In this document: piece by piece, positions 4,417 through 23,011 of the stretch
How positions within the stretch are numbered: position 1 is the first letter of the stretch
Layout of the letters: every line of letters begins with the position of its first letter
Assembly: GCA_016125975.1 (NCBI GenBank)
Contig: JAEFCZ010000007.1
Coordinates: forward strand, 1-44,743
DNA length: 44,743 nucleotides
From: Candidatus Nitrosopumilus sp.
GTDB lineage: Archaea > Thermoproteota > Nitrososphaeria > Nitrososphaerales > Nitrosopumilaceae
Direction: 5' to 3'
Notes under the pieces: generated by a model
The model's input: the letters and a program-made list of their open reading frames with translations, nothing else
The model's database searches: none
Told to the model about the DNA's origin: nothing
Translations under genes and position numbers: made by a program

Positions 4417-6846
4417 ATTAAGATATTTGCTCTAGTCTTATCTACAATCCTGCTTTCTCAAGTTTTTACTTTTGGTTCATATTCCTTTGCAGAATCCTCC
4501 ATTGGAGTCAAGGAAAAATCAATCACACTACAACCAAATGGTGATCCGAATACTGTTTATGATTTAGTTATGCATTGGAATTTACAAAAAGATGGTAAAC
4601 CGTATGTAACCAATAACTATGTCAATATTTTTGGAGATGATGGAACCCAGACATTTATCATTATTGGAGAACAAGTTGACTCTAATGGAAATCTAGATGT
4701 TACTGTTCCAGGATATGGAGAATCTTTTGAATATCTTGAAATCTTTTTGCAAACATGGGATGGACAAACAGAGCAATACGTTACAAATTCTGATCTAATC
4801 TTTTATGTTTCTGAGTGTATTGGAATTGAATTTTGTATTTCGGAAACATACAATCTACCAAAGGATAACTGCACAAATGATCCTTTACAGTATGGAGAGA
4901 TTCAAGTAATTGATCAGTGGGGATATTACGAACATCTTCCAGATTCTGATTCTTACATACTTCACTTTGGTTGGCAAGTACAAGGATTACCTCATTATCT
5001 AACTGGAGTATCTCCTAGTGTTGCAGGAATAATAATAAACTATAACACTGATGCTCCATTTTGGGGTTCTGGAGATGGATGGGAATATACAAATGAAAAT
5101 GGAAAACTTGAAGAAACATTCTCAGTTGAAAATCCTGAAACATTTCAATTTAGTATTGTAGACTTTTCAACTTTTGGTGCATATTGTGGAGATGGACACA
5201 CAATAACAGTTGGTCTTGATGGAGAATCTGAAGATGATTATACAACTACTATTGGTGTTGAAGATGACTCTACAACAATAATTGAAGATGATAATGTAAT
5301 TGATGATCTTCAAACTGATCATACAAAAGCTGATCTTGACATTACTCTTGTAACCCGAAATAATCCTCCAGATGAAATTAAAGGAGGTGATAGGTTTCAC
5401 TATATTCTAACAATTAAAAACAATGGACCAAATACTGCTCGAAATGTCAAACTAACAGGTACTGTATATGATGAGATAATTCTTGCAGGTGTCTACAAAG
5501 GAGCTGAGAATATTGGATGTCTTAAACTCAAACCTATTGATTGCTTTTTAAATAATATTTCTGCTGGTGAAAGTGTTATACTGGAAGTCACATCCGATAC
5601 AAAGCAAGTTTCAAAGAAAACGCCAACTATAGCATCATTTTCTGTATCGAGTGATACTCCTGATGAAAAATTATCCAACAACAAAATTTCATTTGAAAAA
5701 CCAATTTTAAGATCTGAAACAGCTGATTTACTAGTAGACTTTGATGAACCATATAATACGCTTCCACGTCCGCCTCCAAACAAAGTGTCTCTTGGAGAAG
5801 TCTTTACTCATACCATATTTTTCTATAACCAAGGCCCAGATACTGCAAAAGACGTAGTAGTAAGAGATGTTCTTCCTTCTGAAGTAGAATTTGTAAAGGT
5901 TAGATCACCACTTGCTGGTCAATGCACTGGTGGGGGCATAGTCCAATGTAATTTTGGAACAGTCAAACACAATGAATTAATTTTTGTTGAAATTACAGTT
6001 AAAGTAAAAAATGTCAAAACCAACACGTATATTTTAAACTCAGCAACAATTACTAGTTCAACAATAGATCCTATTGAAAATAACAATTCAATTACAATTG
6101 AAATTCCTAGAATAGAAGTTAATACAGAAGCTGACTTGGCTATTCAATTTTTTAGAACAACAACTTCTAATGATTTCCACTACGATCAAATTACTGATAT
6201 TAAACCTGGCCAAAATGCCTCTATAGTGATATTTTTTGAAAATTATGGTTTTTCTGAAGCAAAAGATGTAACTATTACTGTAAATACTCCTGATGGATTT
6301 ATTGTTGAAAATGCAAAAATAAATTCTAGTGAATGTTCAGGTAAACAACAAATTATTTGTAAATATCCAAAGATGCATCCGCCAAATTCTTTAAAACAAA
6401 AACAACAACTTACAACGCATGATATTTTTGGCTCTAATGTAAAAATTTCTGGAAAATTCTCTGATGCTTTATCTGGAGATGAAGAACTAAAAGTTACTGC
6501 ATCAATTTCTAGTTCTTTACCTGATCCTGATATGACTAACAACAAAAAAGAATATGTCATTAAAATTCCATCTACATCTGAAGACGAAGACTTGCCTGGA
6601 ATGGATGATGATTCGACAGAAGAATTTTCTCAAGATTCACAACCAATAAAAATTTCAAAAGATGAATCAGCAATACCCATAAAGACTGATCTAAAATCCT
6701 TAAAAAGAGGAACCCCTGTATCCATCAAAATTATCAAACCAGACGGCACATCTGAAACAAAGGGAATAATTCCAACAACCACTAACTTTGAGTATCGCTT
6801 TAATTTAGATCCAAATGCAGCTCCTGGCAAGATCAAGTTGAGGTAA
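4417..6846 (+). CDS. Secreted DUF11-type repeat protein, N-terminal part
   Basis: The first ATG is at 4570 (MHWNLQKDG), but in-frame codons upstream spell a complete signal peptide beginning at an ATT codon (4417): IKIFALVLSTILLSQVFTFG then SYSFAES. An in-frame TGA at 4408-4410 closes the frame, so either a rare ATT start is used or an ATG was mutated. The mature part holds at least three DUF11-like beta modules (ADLDITLVTRNNPP, ADLLVDFDEP, ADLAIQFFRTTT), each with a NNGPNTA-like or NQGPDTA-like core. DUF11 modules are typical of surface proteins. The frame ends at 6846 after a probable one-base deletion near 6829; the gene continues in the next entry. Confidence 0.75.
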   Translation: MKIFALVLSTILLSQVFTFGSYSFAESSIGVKEKSITLQPNGDPNTVYDLVMHWNLQKDGKPYVTNNYVNIFGDDGTQTFIIIGEQVDSNGNLDVTVPGYGESFEYLEIFLQTWDGQTEQYVTNSDLIFYVSECIGIEFCISETYNLPKDNCTNDPLQYGEIQVIDQWGYYEHLPDSDSYILHFGWQVQGLPHYLTGVSPSVAGIIINYNTDAPFWGSGDGWEYTNENGKLEETFSVENPETFQFSIVDFSTFGAYCGDGHTITVGLDGESEDDYTTTIGVEDDSTTIIEDDNVIDDLQTDHTKADLDITLVTRNNPPDEIKGGDRFHYILTIKNNGPNTARNVKLTGTVYDEIILAGVYKGAENIGCLKLKPIDCFLNNISAGESVILEVTSDTKQVSKKTPTIASFSVSSDTPDEKLSNNKISFEKPILRSETADLLVDFDEPYNTLPRPPPNKVSLGEVFTHTIFFYNQGPDTAKDVVVRDVLPSEVEFVKVRSPLAGQCTGGGIVQCNFGTVKHNELIFVEITVKVKNVKTNTYILNSATITSSTIDPIENNNSITIEIPRIEVNTEADLAIQFFRTTTSNDFHYDQITDIKPGQNASIVIFFENYGFSEAKDVTITVNTPDGFIVENAKINSSECSGKQQIICKYPKMHPPNSLKQKQQLTTHDIFGSNVKISGKFSDALSGDEELKVTASISSSLPDPDMTNNKKEYVIKIPSTSEDEDLPGMDDDSTEEFSQDSQPIKISKDESAIPIKTDLKSLKRGTPVSIKIIKPDGTSETKGIIPTTTNFEYRFNLDPNAAPGKIKLR

Positions 6847-9165: not shown

Positions 9166-9702
9166 ATGCCAATAGATGAGAAATTTGTTGAAAATCTAGA
9201 AATTGTTGGAAAGACAAGCCACAGTGACGGTGAAAATAAACACTTCATCTGGGGTAAAGGCAGAACTGATGGTGAGGCATTTTCAAATGATGATGTCAAA
9301 GCAGCATATGAAGCAAGAGGTGAAGAACAAGTCCCTCTTGGAATTCACGGTACAACTGTAGCAGTTGACTGGGACTCTTGTGTTGCAGCAGGTTCTTGTA
9401 TGAGTGTCTGTCCTGTCCAAACATTCCAGTGGTATAGAACTGAAAAAGATATCCCAGCAGCAGAATGCTTGGATGCAACTTTTGACGGAACTGGTTTGAC
9501 TGAACAAGATGAACGTCTAGATTATACAGATAAATCACAACCAATCAGAGAACATGATTGTACACAATGTATGGCTTGCCAAGAAGCATGCCCAACACAC
9601 GCAATCTTGATTGAACCATCTTACCAAGAGTATCACGAAAAAGCTGATGGCTCTTATGTAAAAATGGAATCAAGCTCTGTAAATCCACACGCACACGATT
9701 AA
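9166..9702 (+). CDS. Zinc-type dicluster ferredoxin, paralogue 2
   Basis: 178 residues, a tandem paralogue of the preceding gene. Cluster motifs are CVAAGSCMSVCP and CTQCMACQEACP. The Asp that sits in the first motif of paralogue 1 (CVADGAC) is Ala here, so the first cluster cannot use that residue as a ligand. The C-terminus is extended by about 15 residues ending NPHAHD, His-rich. DNA identity with paralogue 1 is very high over 9291-9388. Own promoter and terminator. Likely an electron carrier with a shifted potential or partner. Confidence 0.9.
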   Translation: MPIDEKFVENLEIVGKTSHSDGENKHFIWGKGRTDGEAFSNDDVKAAYEARGEEQVPLGIHGTTVAVDWDSCVAAGSCMSVCPVQTFQWYRTEKDIPAAECLDATFDGTGLTEQDERLDYTDKSQPIREHDCTQCMACQEACPTHAILIEPSYQEYHEKADGSYVKMESSSVNPHAHD

Positions 9703-17141: not shown

Positions 17142-18092
17142 TTAATTTTCTATTTTTGCAAGTTCTGCAAGCATTGCAGATAGTTGAATTTCTGAATTAG
17201 AACCAACTAAAATTCTATAATCATATTTTGCAATTACCTCTAAAATATCTGCTAGTTTATCATGTTTTGATTTGAATACTGCAGAATTCAAATATTTCAA
17301 AAAGTCTGATTCTGACATTCCATAAACCTTGATTAATTCAATCATCTTTTCTCTTGCTTCTGGAACTTTTCCAGATAATGCAATTTTTAGAACTTCATCT
17401 ACATCTGTAGTTTTTGTTAATCCTGCAGATGCCTTTACATTTTCTTCAGAAACTGCACCTAAACTTGCAGTAGCTTGCATTAAATTAATTGCATGTCTAA
17501 GATCTCCTTCAGAATAATCATAAATTGCCTTTAGTCCTTTTTTGTCTGCCTTTACTTTTTCTTTTTTTGCAATTTCTTCTAGTCTTTTTATGACATCTTC
17601 TTCTGGAACTGATGTAAACTTGAAAGTTGCACATCTGCTTTGAATAGGATCGATAATCTTTGAGATATTATTTGCAATTAGGATGAATCTACAAATTTTT
17701 GCAGTATCTTCTATGATTCTTCTAAGTGCTGTTTGAGCATCAGAAGTCATTTCGTCTGCTTCATCTAAAATAATAATCTTGAATGGAACATCTGCCATTC
17801 CTGCATATCTTGAAAACTTTTTTACTTTTTCTCTAACCATTCCAATTCCTCTTTCATCTGAGGCATTCAATTCTAAGGTGTAGTCTTTAGCATAGTCTCC
17901 TAAAATTTGTCTTGAAATACATAGTGCGGTAGTTGTCTTTCCAACTCCAGCTGATCCTGAAAACAACAAATGTGGCATATCTGTAGGATCTTTGATTAAT
18001 GCTTCTAAACTTCCAATAATTTCTGTTTGATTAACTACTTCAGAAAGTTTCATTGGACGATATTTTTCTACCCACATGCCAGTTGCAGTCAT
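17142..18092 (-). CDS. rfcS: Replication factor C small subunit (clamp loader)
   Basis: 316 residues from ATG 18092 (MTATGMWVEKYRP). A TTG at 18110 adds six residues, but a TATA-like ATTTATTAG about 25 bases upstream of 18092 favours the ATG and a leaderless transcript. Walker A GSAGVGKTT, Walker B IILDEADEM, sensor IANNISKI, and the clamp-loader QSRC Arg finger are present, followed by the lid and C-terminal collar domain. RfcS forms the ATPase ring that loads PCNA with RfcL. It is divergent from the GINS-mcm-hel308 operon. Confidence 0.95.
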   Translation of the reverse strand: MTATGMWVEKYRPMKLSEVVNQTEIIGSLEALIKDPTDMPHLLFSGSAGVGKTTTALCISRQILGDYAKDYTLELNASDERGIGMVREKVKKFSRYAGMADVPFKIIILDEADEMTSDAQTALRRIIEDTAKICRFILIANNISKIIDPIQSRCATFKFTSVPEEDVIKRLEEIAKKEKVKADKKGLKAIYDYSEGDLRHAINLMQATASLGAVSEENVKASAGLTKTTDVDEVLKIALSGKVPEAREKMIELIKVYGMSESDFLKYLNSAVFKSKHDKLADILEVIAKYDYRILVGSNSEIQLSAMLAELAKIEN

Positions 18093-18185
18093 ATGAGTAC
18101 ATGGGAGCAATTCCCACTAATAAATCCGAATTGGTTATTGTCACATACGTCAAATTAAAATCTCTTTGAGCATAATATAATGAGC

Positions 18186-18282
18186 GATCAGCCTGAAATT
18201 AATTAGGATCAATTGATCTCACTAAATTGTTAACAGAATTGATCGATCCGATACTTGAGGATCTAAAATACAAAAAGTGATC
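18186..18282. promoter_or_regulatory. Cluster of seven GATC sites between rfcS and GINS-mcm
   Basis: GATC begins at 18186, 18207, 18215, 18241, 18245, 18260 and 18279. Two of them form the perfect palindrome GATCAATTGATC (18207-18218), and TGATCTCA is repeated (18214 and 18278). The last sites overlap the CTAAAATAC TATA-like box and the transcript start of GINS. Density is far above chance, so a regulatory or origin-like role is possible. Confidence 0.5.
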
Positions 18283-18286
18283 TCAT

Positions 18287-18805
18287 ATGGAAATAGACAA
18301 AATACAAAAAGTACACTCAATTGGATACCGCCTAAAGGATGCTAAAGTCACTGTAAATCAGGACTACAAGTTCAATGTAGCAGGTCTAAAGACTGAAGGC
18401 AAGCAAGGTGAAGTAAATAACATGCCTCAATGGGTAGGCAAAATTCTTGCAGATAATAACTTGGGAACTCTTGATGCTCCTGATATGATTACTGAACTTA
18501 AACAAGCATTATCAAAAGAAAAAATGGTTGGAGAATATCAAATTTCTACTCTTGAATCTCATTTTTACATTAAACTAAAAGAATCTATGAAAGAATTGAA
18601 TCGAGATGATTTTGATAAAGTTGAAAGTATGATGTTAGAATTATTTAGAATGAGAAGAGGAAAACTAGTAAAATTAGCTGACTCCATCAAACTAAACTCT
18701 GATTTGTACAATAAACTAACTGTTGAAGAAGTGATTTTCTACAAAACTATCTATGAAAACAGTATAGAGTTTGAAAATCAAATAAAAGGTGATACTGATG
18801 AGTAG
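18287..18805 (+). CDS. GINS complex subunit (Gins51-like)
   Basis: 172 residues. An N-terminal small beta domain (VTVNQDYKFNVAGLKT) and then a long helical A-domain with LSKEKMVGEYQISTLESHFY and FRMRRGKLVKLA, the conserved M-R-R-x-K-L helix of GINS proteins. GINS activates the MCM helicase at the fork. Immediate linkage to mcm, with an eight-base overlap, matches other archaea and supports the call. Leaderless start is likely (TATA-like box about 25 bases upstream). Confidence 0.88.
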   Translation: MEIDKIQKVHSIGYRLKDAKVTVNQDYKFNVAGLKTEGKQGEVNNMPQWVGKILADNNLGTLDAPDMITELKQALSKEKMVGEYQISTLESHFYIKLKESMKELNRDDFDKVESMMLELFRMRRGKLVKLADSIKLNSDLYNKLTVEEVIFYKTIYENSIEFENQIKGDTDE

Positions 18806-20885
18806 TGCACAAACCAGTACCTTTACTGATTCTGCACTTTCTGATAAAGTAAAAGAATTCTTAACTAGATTCAAAGACAATAACGGTGAGTACAAGTATG
18901 TACAGGCAATCGACGAAATGATGCCTAAGAATTCTAAATTCATTATTGTTGATTACAATGATTTGATTATTGAACCTGAAATCATATCAATTTTTTCGGA
19001 AAACCCTGATAGAATATTTGATGCCTTTTCAAGAGCAATCAAAGAAGCATTACAAACAAGATTTCCTGATTATGCAGAAAAAATAAAAGATGAAGTCCGT
19101 GTAAGATTAATCAATTATCCTTCTGAGCGAAGTCTCAGACAAATTAATGCTGAAACTATTGGAAACATTACTAGTGTTTCGGGAATGGTAGTAAGAGCTT
19201 CTGAAGTTAAACCTCTTGCAAAAGAATTGATCTTTGTTTGTCCTGACGAGCATCAAACTAAAGTAATTCAGATTAAAGGAATGGATGTTAAAGTTCCAGT
19301 TGTATGTGATAATCCAAATTGCAAACATCGAGAATTTGATCTAAAACCTGAGGCAAGTAAATTCATTGACTTTCAAATCCTAAGATTACAAGAACTTCCT
19401 GAAGATTTGCCACCTGGGCAACTTCCTCACTATATTGACGTCACAATTAGGCAGGATTTAGTAGATAATGCTAGGCCTGGAGACCGAATTGTACTTACTG
19501 GAGTAGTTCGTGTAGAGCAAGAATCTGTCACTGGCGTTACACGTGGACATAGTGGGTTGTACCGGCTAAGAATTGAAGGAAATAATATTGAATTTTTAGG
19601 CGGACGTGGTTCTAAGACTTCTAGAAAAATTGAAAGAGAAGAAATCTCTCCTGAAGAAGAAAAAATGATCAAAGCTCTATCTGCAAGTCCTGATGTTTAC
19701 CAAAGACTAATTGATTCATTTGCTCCACACATTCAAGGACAATCTTTAATCAAAGAAGCAATTTTGTTACTAATTGTAGGTTCCAATCAAAGATCATTAG
19801 GTGATGGTAGTAAAATTAGAGGAGACATTAACGTATTTCTTGTCGGTGATCCTGGTACTGCAAAAAGTGAGATGTTAAAATTCTGTTCTAGAATTGCACC
19901 ACGTGGTTTGTATACCTCTGGTAGGGGTTCAACTGCTGCAGGACTTACAGCTGCTGTTGTAAGAGACAAAACAGGAATTATGATGTTAGAAGCTGGTGCA
20001 GTTGTACTTGGTGATCAAGGTCTTGTAAGTATAGACGAATTTGATAAGATGAAACCTGAAGATAGAAGTGCTTTGCACGAAGTTATGGAACAACAATCAG
20101 CAAGTATTGCAAAAGGTGGTATTGTTGCAACTCTAAATGCCAGAACCTCAATTTTAGCTGCAGCAAACCCTATGTATGGAAAATATGATCCATTCAAAAA
20201 TATTACAGAAAATGTTAACTTGCCAATTCCTCTTTTAACAAGATTTGACTTGATCTTTGTTGTTAGAGATATCCCTACTAAAGAAAAAGATGAAAAAATT
20301 GCAAGACACATTATAGAATTACACACTCCTCAAGGAACAGACAAAAAATCTGTAGTTGATGTTGATTTGCTTACAAAATACCTTTCATATGCTAAACGTG
20401 GAACTCCTGATCTAACGAAGGAAGCAGAACAAAAAATTCTTGATTATTATCTCCAAATGAGAAATGTTGAATCCGAAGAAATGATTACAGTCACACCTAG
20501 ACAACTTGAAGGTATTATCCGACTCTCTACTGCTAGGGCAAGATTACTCATGAAAGATAAGGTTGAAGAAGAAGATGCTGAGCGCGCAATATTTCTAATT
20601 CAAAGCATGCTTCAAGACGCTGGTGTTGATGTTAATACTGGAAAGGTTGATCTTGGGGTATTACAAGGAAAACCTCGAAGCGAGGTTTCAAAAATGCAGT
20701 TATTCATGGATGTGCTAAAAGGTCTTGAAGGTGACAACAAGATCCCTGTTGAAGAAAAGGCATTTGTCAAAGAGCTAGAAAAGAGTGAAAAATTCACAGA
20801 AGAAGAAGCAAGAAATTACATTAGAAGAATGCTTAGAGAAGCATCTATTTATGAATCAAAACCCGGTCATTATAACCGAGTATGA
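18798..20885 (+). CDS. mcm: MCM replicative helicase
   Basis: 695 residues from ATG 18798 (MSSAQTSTF). N-terminal domain with OB fold and zinc site (CPDEH near residue 145 and CDNPNC near 171). AAA+ core: Walker A GDPGTAKSEM near residue 350, Walker B SIDEFDKM near 410, Arg finger LTRFDL near 479. A C-terminal winged helix ends in HYNRV. Homohexameric 3'-5' DNA helicase. Overlaps GINS upstream by 8 bases and hel308 downstream by 4 (ATGA), so the three are translationally coupled. Confidence 0.97.
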   Translation: MSSAQTSTFTDSALSDKVKEFLTRFKDNNGEYKYVQAIDEMMPKNSKFIIVDYNDLIIEPEIISIFSENPDRIFDAFSRAIKEALQTRFPDYAEKIKDEVRVRLINYPSERSLRQINAETIGNITSVSGMVVRASEVKPLAKELIFVCPDEHQTKVIQIKGMDVKVPVVCDNPNCKHREFDLKPEASKFIDFQILRLQELPEDLPPGQLPHYIDVTIRQDLVDNARPGDRIVLTGVVRVEQESVTGVTRGHSGLYRLRIEGNNIEFLGGRGSKTSRKIEREEISPEEEKMIKALSASPDVYQRLIDSFAPHIQGQSLIKEAILLLIVGSNQRSLGDGSKIRGDINVFLVGDPGTAKSEMLKFCSRIAPRGLYTSGRGSTAAGLTAAVVRDKTGIMMLEAGAVVLGDQGLVSIDEFDKMKPEDRSALHEVMEQQSASIAKGGIVATLNARTSILAAANPMYGKYDPFKNITENVNLPIPLLTRFDLIFVVRDIPTKEKDEKIARHIIELHTPQGTDKKSVVDVDLLTKYLSYAKRGTPDLTKEAEQKILDYYLQMRNVESEEMITVTPRQLEGIIRLSTARARLLMKDKVEEEDAERAIFLIQSMLQDAGVDVNTGKVDLGVLQGKPRSEVSKMQLFMDVLKGLEGDNKIPVEEKAFVKELEKSEKFTEEEARNYIRRMLREASIYESKPGHYNRV

Positions 20886-23011
20886 AAATAGAAAAATTAA
20901 AACTTCCAGAATCTGCAATTGAATTTTTAAAATCACAAGGTTTTGAAAAATTATATCCTCCACAAGCAGATAGTGTAAAATCAGGATTACTTGATGGCAA
21001 AAGTGTTCTAGTTTCTGCTCCCACTGCAAGTGGAAAAACACTGATTGCAATGCTTGGGATGATGAGTTATCTTTCAAAAAACAAAGGTAAAGTAATCTAT
21101 CTTAGTCCTTTGAGAGCATTAACTGCTGAAAAATTTTCTGAATTTAAAAAATTAGAAAAAGTTGCATTGGGGAACAAAGTTAAAGTTGGAATTTCTACTG
21201 GTGATTTTGAAAATATTGAAAAGAATCTAGAAAAAAATAACATTTTAGTATTAACTAATGAAAAAATGGATTCCATAATAAGACATGGTGCTGAATGGAT
21301 TGATGAAATTGGGTTAGTGATTGCTGATGAGGTTCATCTAATTGGTGATGAGAGTAGAGGGCCTACATTAGAAATGATCTTAACCCAACTAAAACTCTTA
21401 GAATCAAAACCTCAGATTGTTGGTCTTAGTGCAACTATAACAAATTCTGATGAAATTGCAGATTGGCTTGAATGTACTCTAGTAAAAAATGATTGGAGAC
21501 CTGTTCCTCTATCTGAGGGCGTTTGTGATGCCGGAGAAGTTACTATGGCTGATGGAACAACATTTGAAGTTGAGCGTAGTATTTGTGGAACTCCGATTGA
21601 TTTAGGCGTGCAATCTGTAAAAGATGGAGGACAATCACTAGTTTTTGCTGAAACTAGAACTCGCTCAAAATCTCTTGCAACAAAGGCATCTGATGCAATT
21701 TCTCAAATTTTAGAGAAAAAAGAAATGAACCAATTAGAAAAAACATCAAAGAAAATCCTATCTGAAAATGAACATACGGAGCTAGTGAAAACATTAGCAC
21801 TTTTAGTAAAAAAAGGAGTTGCATTTCATCATGCAGGATTAAATCAAAAATGTAGAGAAACAATTGAGACAGAATTTAGAAATGGAACCATCAAACTGTT
21901 ATCTTCAACTCCAACTTTGGCTGCAGGTGTTAATCTACCTGCAAGAAGAGTTGTAATTTCTAATGTAAATAGATACAATGCAAAAGTAGGTGCAAATAGA
22001 CCAATTAGCATACTTGAATACAAACAACTTTGTGGTCGAGCTGGAAGACCTCAGTATGATGATTATGGAGAATCAATTATTGTTGGAAATGGCAATACTG
22101 AAGATCTAATTGATTATTACATTAATGGTGAACCTGAACCTATTGAATCAAAAATTACTGATGATAAATCTTTGAGAACTCATATACTCAGTGTTATTGT
22201 AACTCATCCTGGAATCAAAAAAGAAGAAATTTTGGAATTCTTTTTACAAACACTTGGTGGTATACAATCTCGTAAACCCACTGTAAAGTTTGCAATTGAT
22301 ATTTCATTACGTTTTCTTTCTAGTCAATATCTAATTGTAAAAAAAGGTGAAAGATATGCTGCAACTGAATTTGGGAAAAAGACATCTATGCTTTACATCG
22401 ATCCACTTACTGCAACTTACTTTAGAGATGCACTTGAAAATGTCTCTCAAGAAAGAAAACATACATTTGGATTTTTACATTTGATTTCAAATTGTGAAGA
22501 ATTTTTCCCAAAATTTTCACTTCGGCAAAAAGACTATGAATCTGCAAGTCTTATGATAGAAAATAACTCTTCAGAACTCTTAGAACAAATTTCTGAATAT
22601 GATTGCTCAAGAAGCCTTTTGGCCCTTCAATCTTGGATTACTGAGTCTACAGAACTTAGTCTTTCAGATAGCCTCGGAATTGAGTCTGGTGATATGCATA
22701 GGATGACTGAGAATGGAAATTGGCTTTGTTACTGCCTAAGAGAGATCGCAAAACATGTGGAAAGGGCAGATTTGCTTGAAGAATTAGGTGATTTAGGCAG
22801 AAGAATCTCTTATGGAATTAGAGAAGAATTACTTGAACTAGTCAGGATTAAAGGAATCGGTAGAGTTAGAGCAAGAATTCTATTCAAACATGGAATCAAA
22901 AATCTTGATGACTTGGCAAAGATTCCTGTAAATAAATTAGCAGAAATAGATAAAATTGGTTCAACCATTGCGGATAACATTAAGGCAGAATTACGAAGAG
23001 TTAGATATTGA
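20882..23011 (+). CDS. hel308: Hel308 superfamily 2 DNA helicase
   Basis: 709 residues. Motif I APTASGKT near residue 45, motif II DEVH near 149, motif III LSATI, the TLAAGVNLPARRVV motif, motif VI QLCGRAGRPQYD near 381, a winged helix and ratchet helical domain, and C-terminal helix-hairpin-helix pairs (IKGIGRVRARILFKHGI). Hel308 unwinds lagging strands at stalled forks and functions in recombination repair. It starts inside the mcm stop (ATGA), a direct operon link between replication and fork repair. The next gene overlaps its stop in turn. Confidence 0.96.
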   Translation: MKIEKLKLPESAIEFLKSQGFEKLYPPQADSVKSGLLDGKSVLVSAPTASGKTLIAMLGMMSYLSKNKGKVIYLSPLRALTAEKFSEFKKLEKVALGNKVKVGISTGDFENIEKNLEKNNILVLTNEKMDSIIRHGAEWIDEIGLVIADEVHLIGDESRGPTLEMILTQLKLLESKPQIVGLSATITNSDEIADWLECTLVKNDWRPVPLSEGVCDAGEVTMADGTTFEVERSICGTPIDLGVQSVKDGGQSLVFAETRTRSKSLATKASDAISQILEKKEMNQLEKTSKKILSENEHTELVKTLALLVKKGVAFHHAGLNQKCRETIETEFRNGTIKLLSSTPTLAAGVNLPARRVVISNVNRYNAKVGANRPISILEYKQLCGRAGRPQYDDYGESIIVGNGNTEDLIDYYINGEPEPIESKITDDKSLRTHILSVIVTHPGIKKEEILEFFLQTLGGIQSRKPTVKFAIDISLRFLSSQYLIVKKGERYAATEFGKKTSMLYIDPLTATYFRDALENVSQERKHTFGFLHLISNCEEFFPKFSLRQKDYESASLMIENNSSELLEQISEYDCSRSLLALQSWITESTELSLSDSLGIESGDMHRMTENGNWLCYCLREIAKHVERADLLEELGDLGRRISYGIREELLELVRIKGIGRVRARILFKHGIKNLDDLAKIPVNKLAEIDKIGSTIADNIKAELRRVRY

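Follow-up and report, generated by a model that had tools for sequence, protein, structure and literature searches.

Seven clustered GATC sites as a conserved, possibly methylation-responsive control element upstream of the GINS-MCM-Hel308 operon in Nitrosopumilaceae

The cluster of seven GATC sites between rfcS and the GINS-MCM-Hel308 operon of a Candidatus Nitrosopumilus genome is real and not a product of chance. Comparison with relatives gives good support to a conserved, operator-like DNA element in front of the operon. With a confidence close to even, we propose that the cluster is a promoter-proximal control element in which the GATC sites are marked by a methyltransferase, protein binding responds to their methylation, and the helicase operon is thereby expressed in step with replication. 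A sequence-specific protein would bind the two GATC dyads, three helical turns apart, together with the GTTAA box between them, and the same protein would bind a related GATC-flanked TGTTAACA site by cdc6 and the origin. The Dam-class methyltransferase of the family would modify the GATC adenines of the element. The methylation state, either full or hemimethylated after the passage of a replication fork, would alter the binding of this protein and would thereby tie expression of the operon to the passage of replication. What we infer is that the enzyme acts on these sites, that a protein binds the element, that methylation is sensed, and in which direction the effect runs. Nitrosopumilaceae are among the most abundant microbes of the ocean, and the regulation of their single origin and of their helicase is poorly known.

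The window, i.e., the whole stretch of 44,743 nucleotides that was analysed, is an archaeal contig of genome G000 with 33% GC; judging by its gene content and the amo locus, the genome belongs to Nitrosopumilus (Nitrosopumilaceae). GATC starts at positions 18186, 18207, 18215, 18241, 18245, 18260 and 18279. The original prediction of seven sites in 97 bp, with less than one expected by chance, was borne out: at the density of the window, 0.34 GATC would fall in 97 bp. The palindrome GATCAATTGATC and the GATCGATC pair that it had pointed out are present as well. The window as a whole is not enriched, with 155 GATC against 170 expected by shuffling, and 18186-18282 is its sole 97-bp stretch with seven. 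None of 200 dinucleotide shuffles of the entire window gave seven GATC in 97 bp, and one gave six. Likewise, shuffling the 176-bp intergenic region 2000 times never gave seven (mean 1.46, maximum 5). Outside the cluster, the top-listed 100-bp stretches of the window that start with GATC hold at most three. The complete relative G007 agrees with this: over a 400-kb sample, GATC is nowhere denser than in the orthologous cluster, with 6 in 100 bp and 4 in the runner-up. The features of the locus are as follows.

17142..18092, minus strand: rfcS, small subunit of RFC, the divergent neighbour
18115..18126, minus strand: putative TATA-like box of rfcS, GATTTATTAGTG on this strand, conserved in the alignment
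18126..18141, no strand: CCGAATTGGTTATTGT box upstream of rfcS, a conserved block
18155..18161, plus strand: TTAAAAT, possible alternative TATA box of GINS, kept by almost every sequence of the Nitrosopumilus alignment
18186..18189, no strand: outer GATC within GCGATCAGCCTG, conserved at genus level in the alignment and absent from some species
18206..18249, no strand: core GGATCAATTGATC-N18-AATTGATCGATCC with four GATC words; spacing exact in relatives, core inverted in G210
18207..18218, no strand: dyad P1, GATCAATTGATC, with GATC arms and an AAWT centre, essentially single copy per genome
18228..18235, no strand: TGTTAACA box within the 18-bp spacer, common to the cdc6 region (composite pattern search)
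18237..18248, no strand: dyad P3, AATTGATCGATC, its centre 32 bp (about three helical turns) from the centre of P1
18250..18263, no strand: GATACTTGAGGATC flank carrying the sixth GATC (alignment); may overlap the TATA/BRE region of GINS
18277..18282, plus strand: GTGATC with the seventh GATC, probable Shine-Dalgarno sequence
18287..18805, plus strand: GINS (Gins23), first gene of the operon (NCBIfam model match)
18798..20885, plus strand: MCM replicative helicase (NCBIfam model match, score below the curated cut-off)
20882..23011, plus strand: Hel308 helicase (NCBIfam model match, score below the curated cut-off)

The GATC sites are conserved in relatives and rank with the best-conserved non-coding positions of this region. 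A lack of such conservation would have refuted the original prediction, and the comparison did not show one. GINS loci were taken from 30 genomes labelled as the same genus. Over 29 Nitrosopumilus sequences, the 62-nt block 18201-18262 has a majority identity of 96.7%, compared to 69% at the strict four-fold sites of GINS and 91% in the best 62-nt coding stretch. AAGTGATCT is near-invariant across the Nitrosopumilus alignment, and one GATC of the second dyad is lost at two of the 30 loci (L006 and L011). In Nitrosopumilus, the CCGAATTGGTTATTGT box of the rfcS side reaches roughly the conservation of the GATC core; most compact genera lack it.

Beyond the genus, a model built on sequence only matched 186 of 200 family genomes and 19 of 22 genera at E values up to 1, many of these matches being weak. 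Among 151 genomes of the order, strong matches are confined to Nitrosopumilaceae; weak ones in other families (E about 0.003-0.01) were taken as chance. The pattern GATCAAWTGATC-N18-AATTGATCGATC, with a spacing of exactly 18, is found in representatives of 17 groups (16 genera). In these 17 representatives, which were picked for having the core, every one of the 16 GATC letters is the same throughout, whereas only 10 of the 26 other core letters are. The TGTTAACA box of the spacer is degenerate (GTKAA) in several genera. The element is absent from lineages g22, g27, g31 and g35 and from five genomes labelled as the same genus, and the core is rearranged in G210, G166 and G240.

The number of GATC words is conserved along with the core. 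Nearly all core-bearing genomes have 4-8 GATC in the 120 bp upstream of GINS, where 0.6-2.2 are expected; at L072 and L080, which are degenerate, the counts are 3 and 2. The compact genera g39, g37, g26 and g28 have zero or one GATC outside the core, which counts against a methylation-responsive element; elsewhere, the extra words sit at genus-specific places. G210 and G166 keep 8 GATC despite the broken order of the core. The words outside the core and the 8 GATC kept after rearrangement suggest selection on GATC itself, and the invariant letters and the density of the word likewise favour selection on GATC as such. The same pattern would, however, result from a protein that recognises GATC.

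The original prediction had placed the cluster exactly between divergent replication genes. The gene layout agrees with this, rfcS and GINS-MCM-Hel308 being divergent, and the position stands. The significance given to it does not, as the central location is incidental. In g1, g24, g29 and g33, extra DNA lies between rfcS and the core, which is still close to GINS; the element thus tracks GINS. In g39, g37, g28 and g41, a TATA-like CCATTAAATCC directly follows the second dyad, so the core would be just upstream of the GINS promoter. It is from this position of CCATTAAATCC in compact genera that the GATACTTGAGGATC flank may be given a promoter role. GTGATC just before the start codon recurs in Nitrosopumilus and several other genera. 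It is complementary to the 3' end of archaeal 16S rRNA and is probably a Shine-Dalgarno sequence, which would explain the seventh GATC.

The promoter layout also bears on whether the block works as DNA or as RNA. In Nitrosopumilus, the TTAAAAT farther upstream could serve as a second TATA-like box, and part of the block may then be transcribed. The block could accordingly act as a structured leader at the 5' end of the GINS mRNA, hiding the Shine-Dalgarno-like GTGATC by GATC-GATC pairing, and the consensus folding by RNAalifold does pair GGATCA with TGATCT. However, none of the 15 pairs in this folding covaries, since no pair changed on both sides. Folding of the single sequence was no better than that of shuffles (z-score -0.78), neither strand gave an RNA structure, a search of the element against Rfam matched no family, and in the compact genera the TATA-like CCATTAAATCC lies downstream of the core. 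Moreover, the core of G210 is inverted relative to its flanks: the alignment score is 43 inverted and 27 forward, and 0 of 2000 shuffles gave such a result. Between G210 and G166, one half of the core is flipped, and G240 resembles G166. This tolerance of inversion points to a DNA element. The RNA leader is therefore unlikely, and we give it a small probability. The region can also be read in Nitrosopumilus as a short upstream ORF, LTKLLTELIDPILEDLK..K, with a leader-peptide role. Here, the probability is next to nil: the frame is broken by TAG TGA in g34 and by TAA in L002, L025 and g39, it shifts in one clade, there is no common start codon, and its silent positions are invariant. The peptide LTKLLTELIDPILEDLK was rejected as a general explanation on account of the in-frame stops and frame shifts.

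A DNA element among replication genes could serve as a replication origin or belong to one, as the original prediction had suggested among other readings. Both TGTTAACA and GATC words recur in the cdc6 region, and, as a point in common with archaeal ORB/mini-ORB origin elements, GTTAAC boxes occur at both the element and the cdc6 side. Yet the distance from the element to cdc6 is about 180-300 kb in all 18 complete genomes checked. ORB-like repeats sit beside cdc6 (upstream of it, with the exact pattern in G007 and G199, next to GTTAAC repeats). In the element, by contrast, no ORB-like repeat was seen. In N. maritimus, a single origin has been mapped (PMC4010727, PMC5333045). Coarse sampling of GC skew in one genome, which was noisy, gave no skew signal. 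The origin reading did not hold; it is unlikely, with a very small probability. The cdc6 region of G007 (end of L183, start of L108) itself has an origin-like intergenic stretch: it contains GTTAAC repeats and two ORB-like repeats, and the divergent winged-helix-like gene there is conserved throughout the order.

The original prediction had also considered a replication-linked regulator site, and this part is supported: the element tracks GINS-MCM-Hel308 and has a composite motif in common with the cdc6 region. On the cdc6 side, a GATC-flanked TGTTAACA site immediately precedes a divergent gene whose product is a winged-helix-like protein of 128 aa. The composite pattern GGATC-N(5-30)-TGTTAAC-N(2-14)-GATC was searched in 30 genomes, 20 of them Nitrosopumilus. 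In these 20, it matches almost only the GINS site and the cdc6-side site, and in G000 the latter was verified to lie between the winged-helix gene and cdc6. Among the 30 genomes, matches recognisably elsewhere are G006:252043 and G118:119062, and several more lie on unplaced contigs and were incompletely traced; a backward control pattern gave 0-2 matches per genome. Both copies are more degenerate outside Nitrosopumilus. These searches support a motif common to the element and the cdc6 region in Nitrosopumilus. The winged-helix-like protein matches PF03965 at E=9e-4, which is below the cut-off. Of 40 genomes of the order, 38 encode this protein, which is thus a candidate reader that is not specific to the element. 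A genome-wide regulon of the full element was rejected, as GATCAAWTGATC and AATTGATCGATC are each nearly single copy genome-wide.

As for the methyltransferase, PF02086 (D12-class adenine methyltransferase) was found in 51 of 51 different family genomes searched (25/25 and 27/27, with G000 in both sets), the match being weak in G109 and broken in G072, and in 4 of 23 genomes of other families. The gene of G000 is the following.

4424-5287 of locus L174 (G000, contig C17): Dam-class methyltransferase gene, 287 aa, next to amoA

The protein matches PF02086 at E=3e-67. Its closest solved protein is the GATC-specific M.DpnII (2dpm, E=7e-67), followed by E. coli Dam, and it reaches 303.9 bits with the NCBIfam Dam model TIGR00571, well above the curated cut-off of 114.85. 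Unlike M.DpnII and E. coli Dam, the family enzyme usually adjoins amoA. In all seven loci read, it is next to amo genes, and no restriction enzyme was recognised by eye among its neighbours in these seven genomes. AmoA lies within the fetched flank at 20 of 26 family methyltransferase loci, including those of most genomes that lack the element. It is missing from the flank in G080, G069, G210, G073, G075 and G066, in at least some cases because a contig ends within the locus. Two further observations concern these genes. In G072 (L173, G072:C4:76030-76772), the methyltransferase is apparently broken, with two partial matches and stops, and the element is kept; a sequencing error may be involved. 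A 642-aa open frame of G000 (G000:C83:9118-10917) has two PF02086 matches and is possibly a fused double adenine methyltransferase.

Methylation of GATC in this group is well founded. In Ca. Nitrosoarchaeum BD3 from Lake Biwa, m6A was reported at 9446 of 9618 GATC (98.2%), together with a matching methyltransferase without a restriction partner, and the same motifs were noted in Ca. Nitrosomarinus catalina (PMC6329791). The family enzyme is predicted to mark GATC, and it would methylate the seven sites of the cluster as well. Family members that lack the element carry the gene too, and its distribution, being broader than that of the element, weakens an argument from co-evolution. Its presence was rejected as a marker of the element, as no correlation between them is seen among family members.

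The main alternative to a methylation-responsive element is an operator that is indifferent to methylation. A transcription factor on the two dyads and the GTTAA box would control GINS-MCM-Hel308, and the cdc6-side gene with it, and GATC would merely be part of its recognition sequence. We regard this as quite possible, if short of probable. The exact N18 spacing and the 32-bp distance between the dyads fit an ordinary operator equally well; about three helical turns would be expected for a cooperative pair of proteins. The site is essentially single copy, its motif is common to the cdc6 region, and the conserved winged-helix-like gene next to the cdc6-side copy could encode an autoregulated factor. 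Points against an indifferent operator are the additional GATC words beyond the core, whose places differ between genera, the 8 GATC retained after rearrangement of the core, and the D12-class enzyme in every family genome searched. Sensing of methylation seems somewhat more likely than indifference to it, and binding of the operator factor probably responds to GATC methylation. The idea of a methylation-sensed control region, part of the original prediction, is thus partly upheld, by the circumstantial evidence of a family-wide Dam-class enzyme and the GATC methylome of a relative; sensing at this locus goes a step further. Taken as a whole, the first interpretation stands for the replication-linked regulator, stands in part for methylation sensing and falls for the origin.

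Several known systems resemble the proposed methylation-responsive element. In the Dam/SeqA system of gammaproteobacteria (oriC, dnaA), a GATC cluster likewise lies at a replication-gene promoter and near an initiator gene, and a Dam-class methyltransferase is present in the same genomes. As in that system, the cluster described here is significant, lies in the control region of replication genes, and its sites are conserved in relatives. In contrast to Dam/SeqA, the element has an archaeal promoter and a helicase operon, and its geometry is fixed and operator-like, whereas the GATC spacing of Dam/SeqA is loose. The methylation state may also report fork passage in the CcrM/GANTC-CtrA system of alphaproteobacteria, which differs in its motif (GANTC), its enzyme class and its regulators. 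Compared to archaeal ORB/mini-ORB elements, the element is unlinked to cdc6. No description of methylation-timed control of archaeal replication genes was found in the open-access literature. The element may be an archaeal counterpart of the bacterial control of DNA replication by methylation timing. A more specific version is an independently evolved archaeal Dam-dependent switch, in which hemimethylation left by the fork at the GATC clusters of cdc6 and GINS-MCM-Hel308 would time the supply of helicase through a reader unrelated to SeqA; we consider it possible and rather doubtful. If true, it would be a separately evolved archaeal analogue of the Dam/SeqA logic. If methylation is irrelevant, the element would still be a candidate operator that the helicase operon has in common with the cdc6 region, and a lead to a replication regulator.

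Second copies of the element away from GINS were seen in seven genomes: L061/L081 (G013), L062/L082 (G128), L066/L083 (G162), L067/L084 (G150), L069/L085 (G074), L071/L087 (G062) and L077/L086 (G122). They keep the 18-bp spacing and lie mostly a short distance upstream of small ORFs, some of them by integrase- or transposase-like genes. The second copy of G162 includes the start of rfcS, and that of G150 is near the amo locus. In G128, the ORF after the second copy (L082:9237-9545, reverse-complement coordinates) encodes a stand-alone protein of 102 aa that resembles the winged helix at the C terminus of MCM (30% over 71 aa, E=2e-8).
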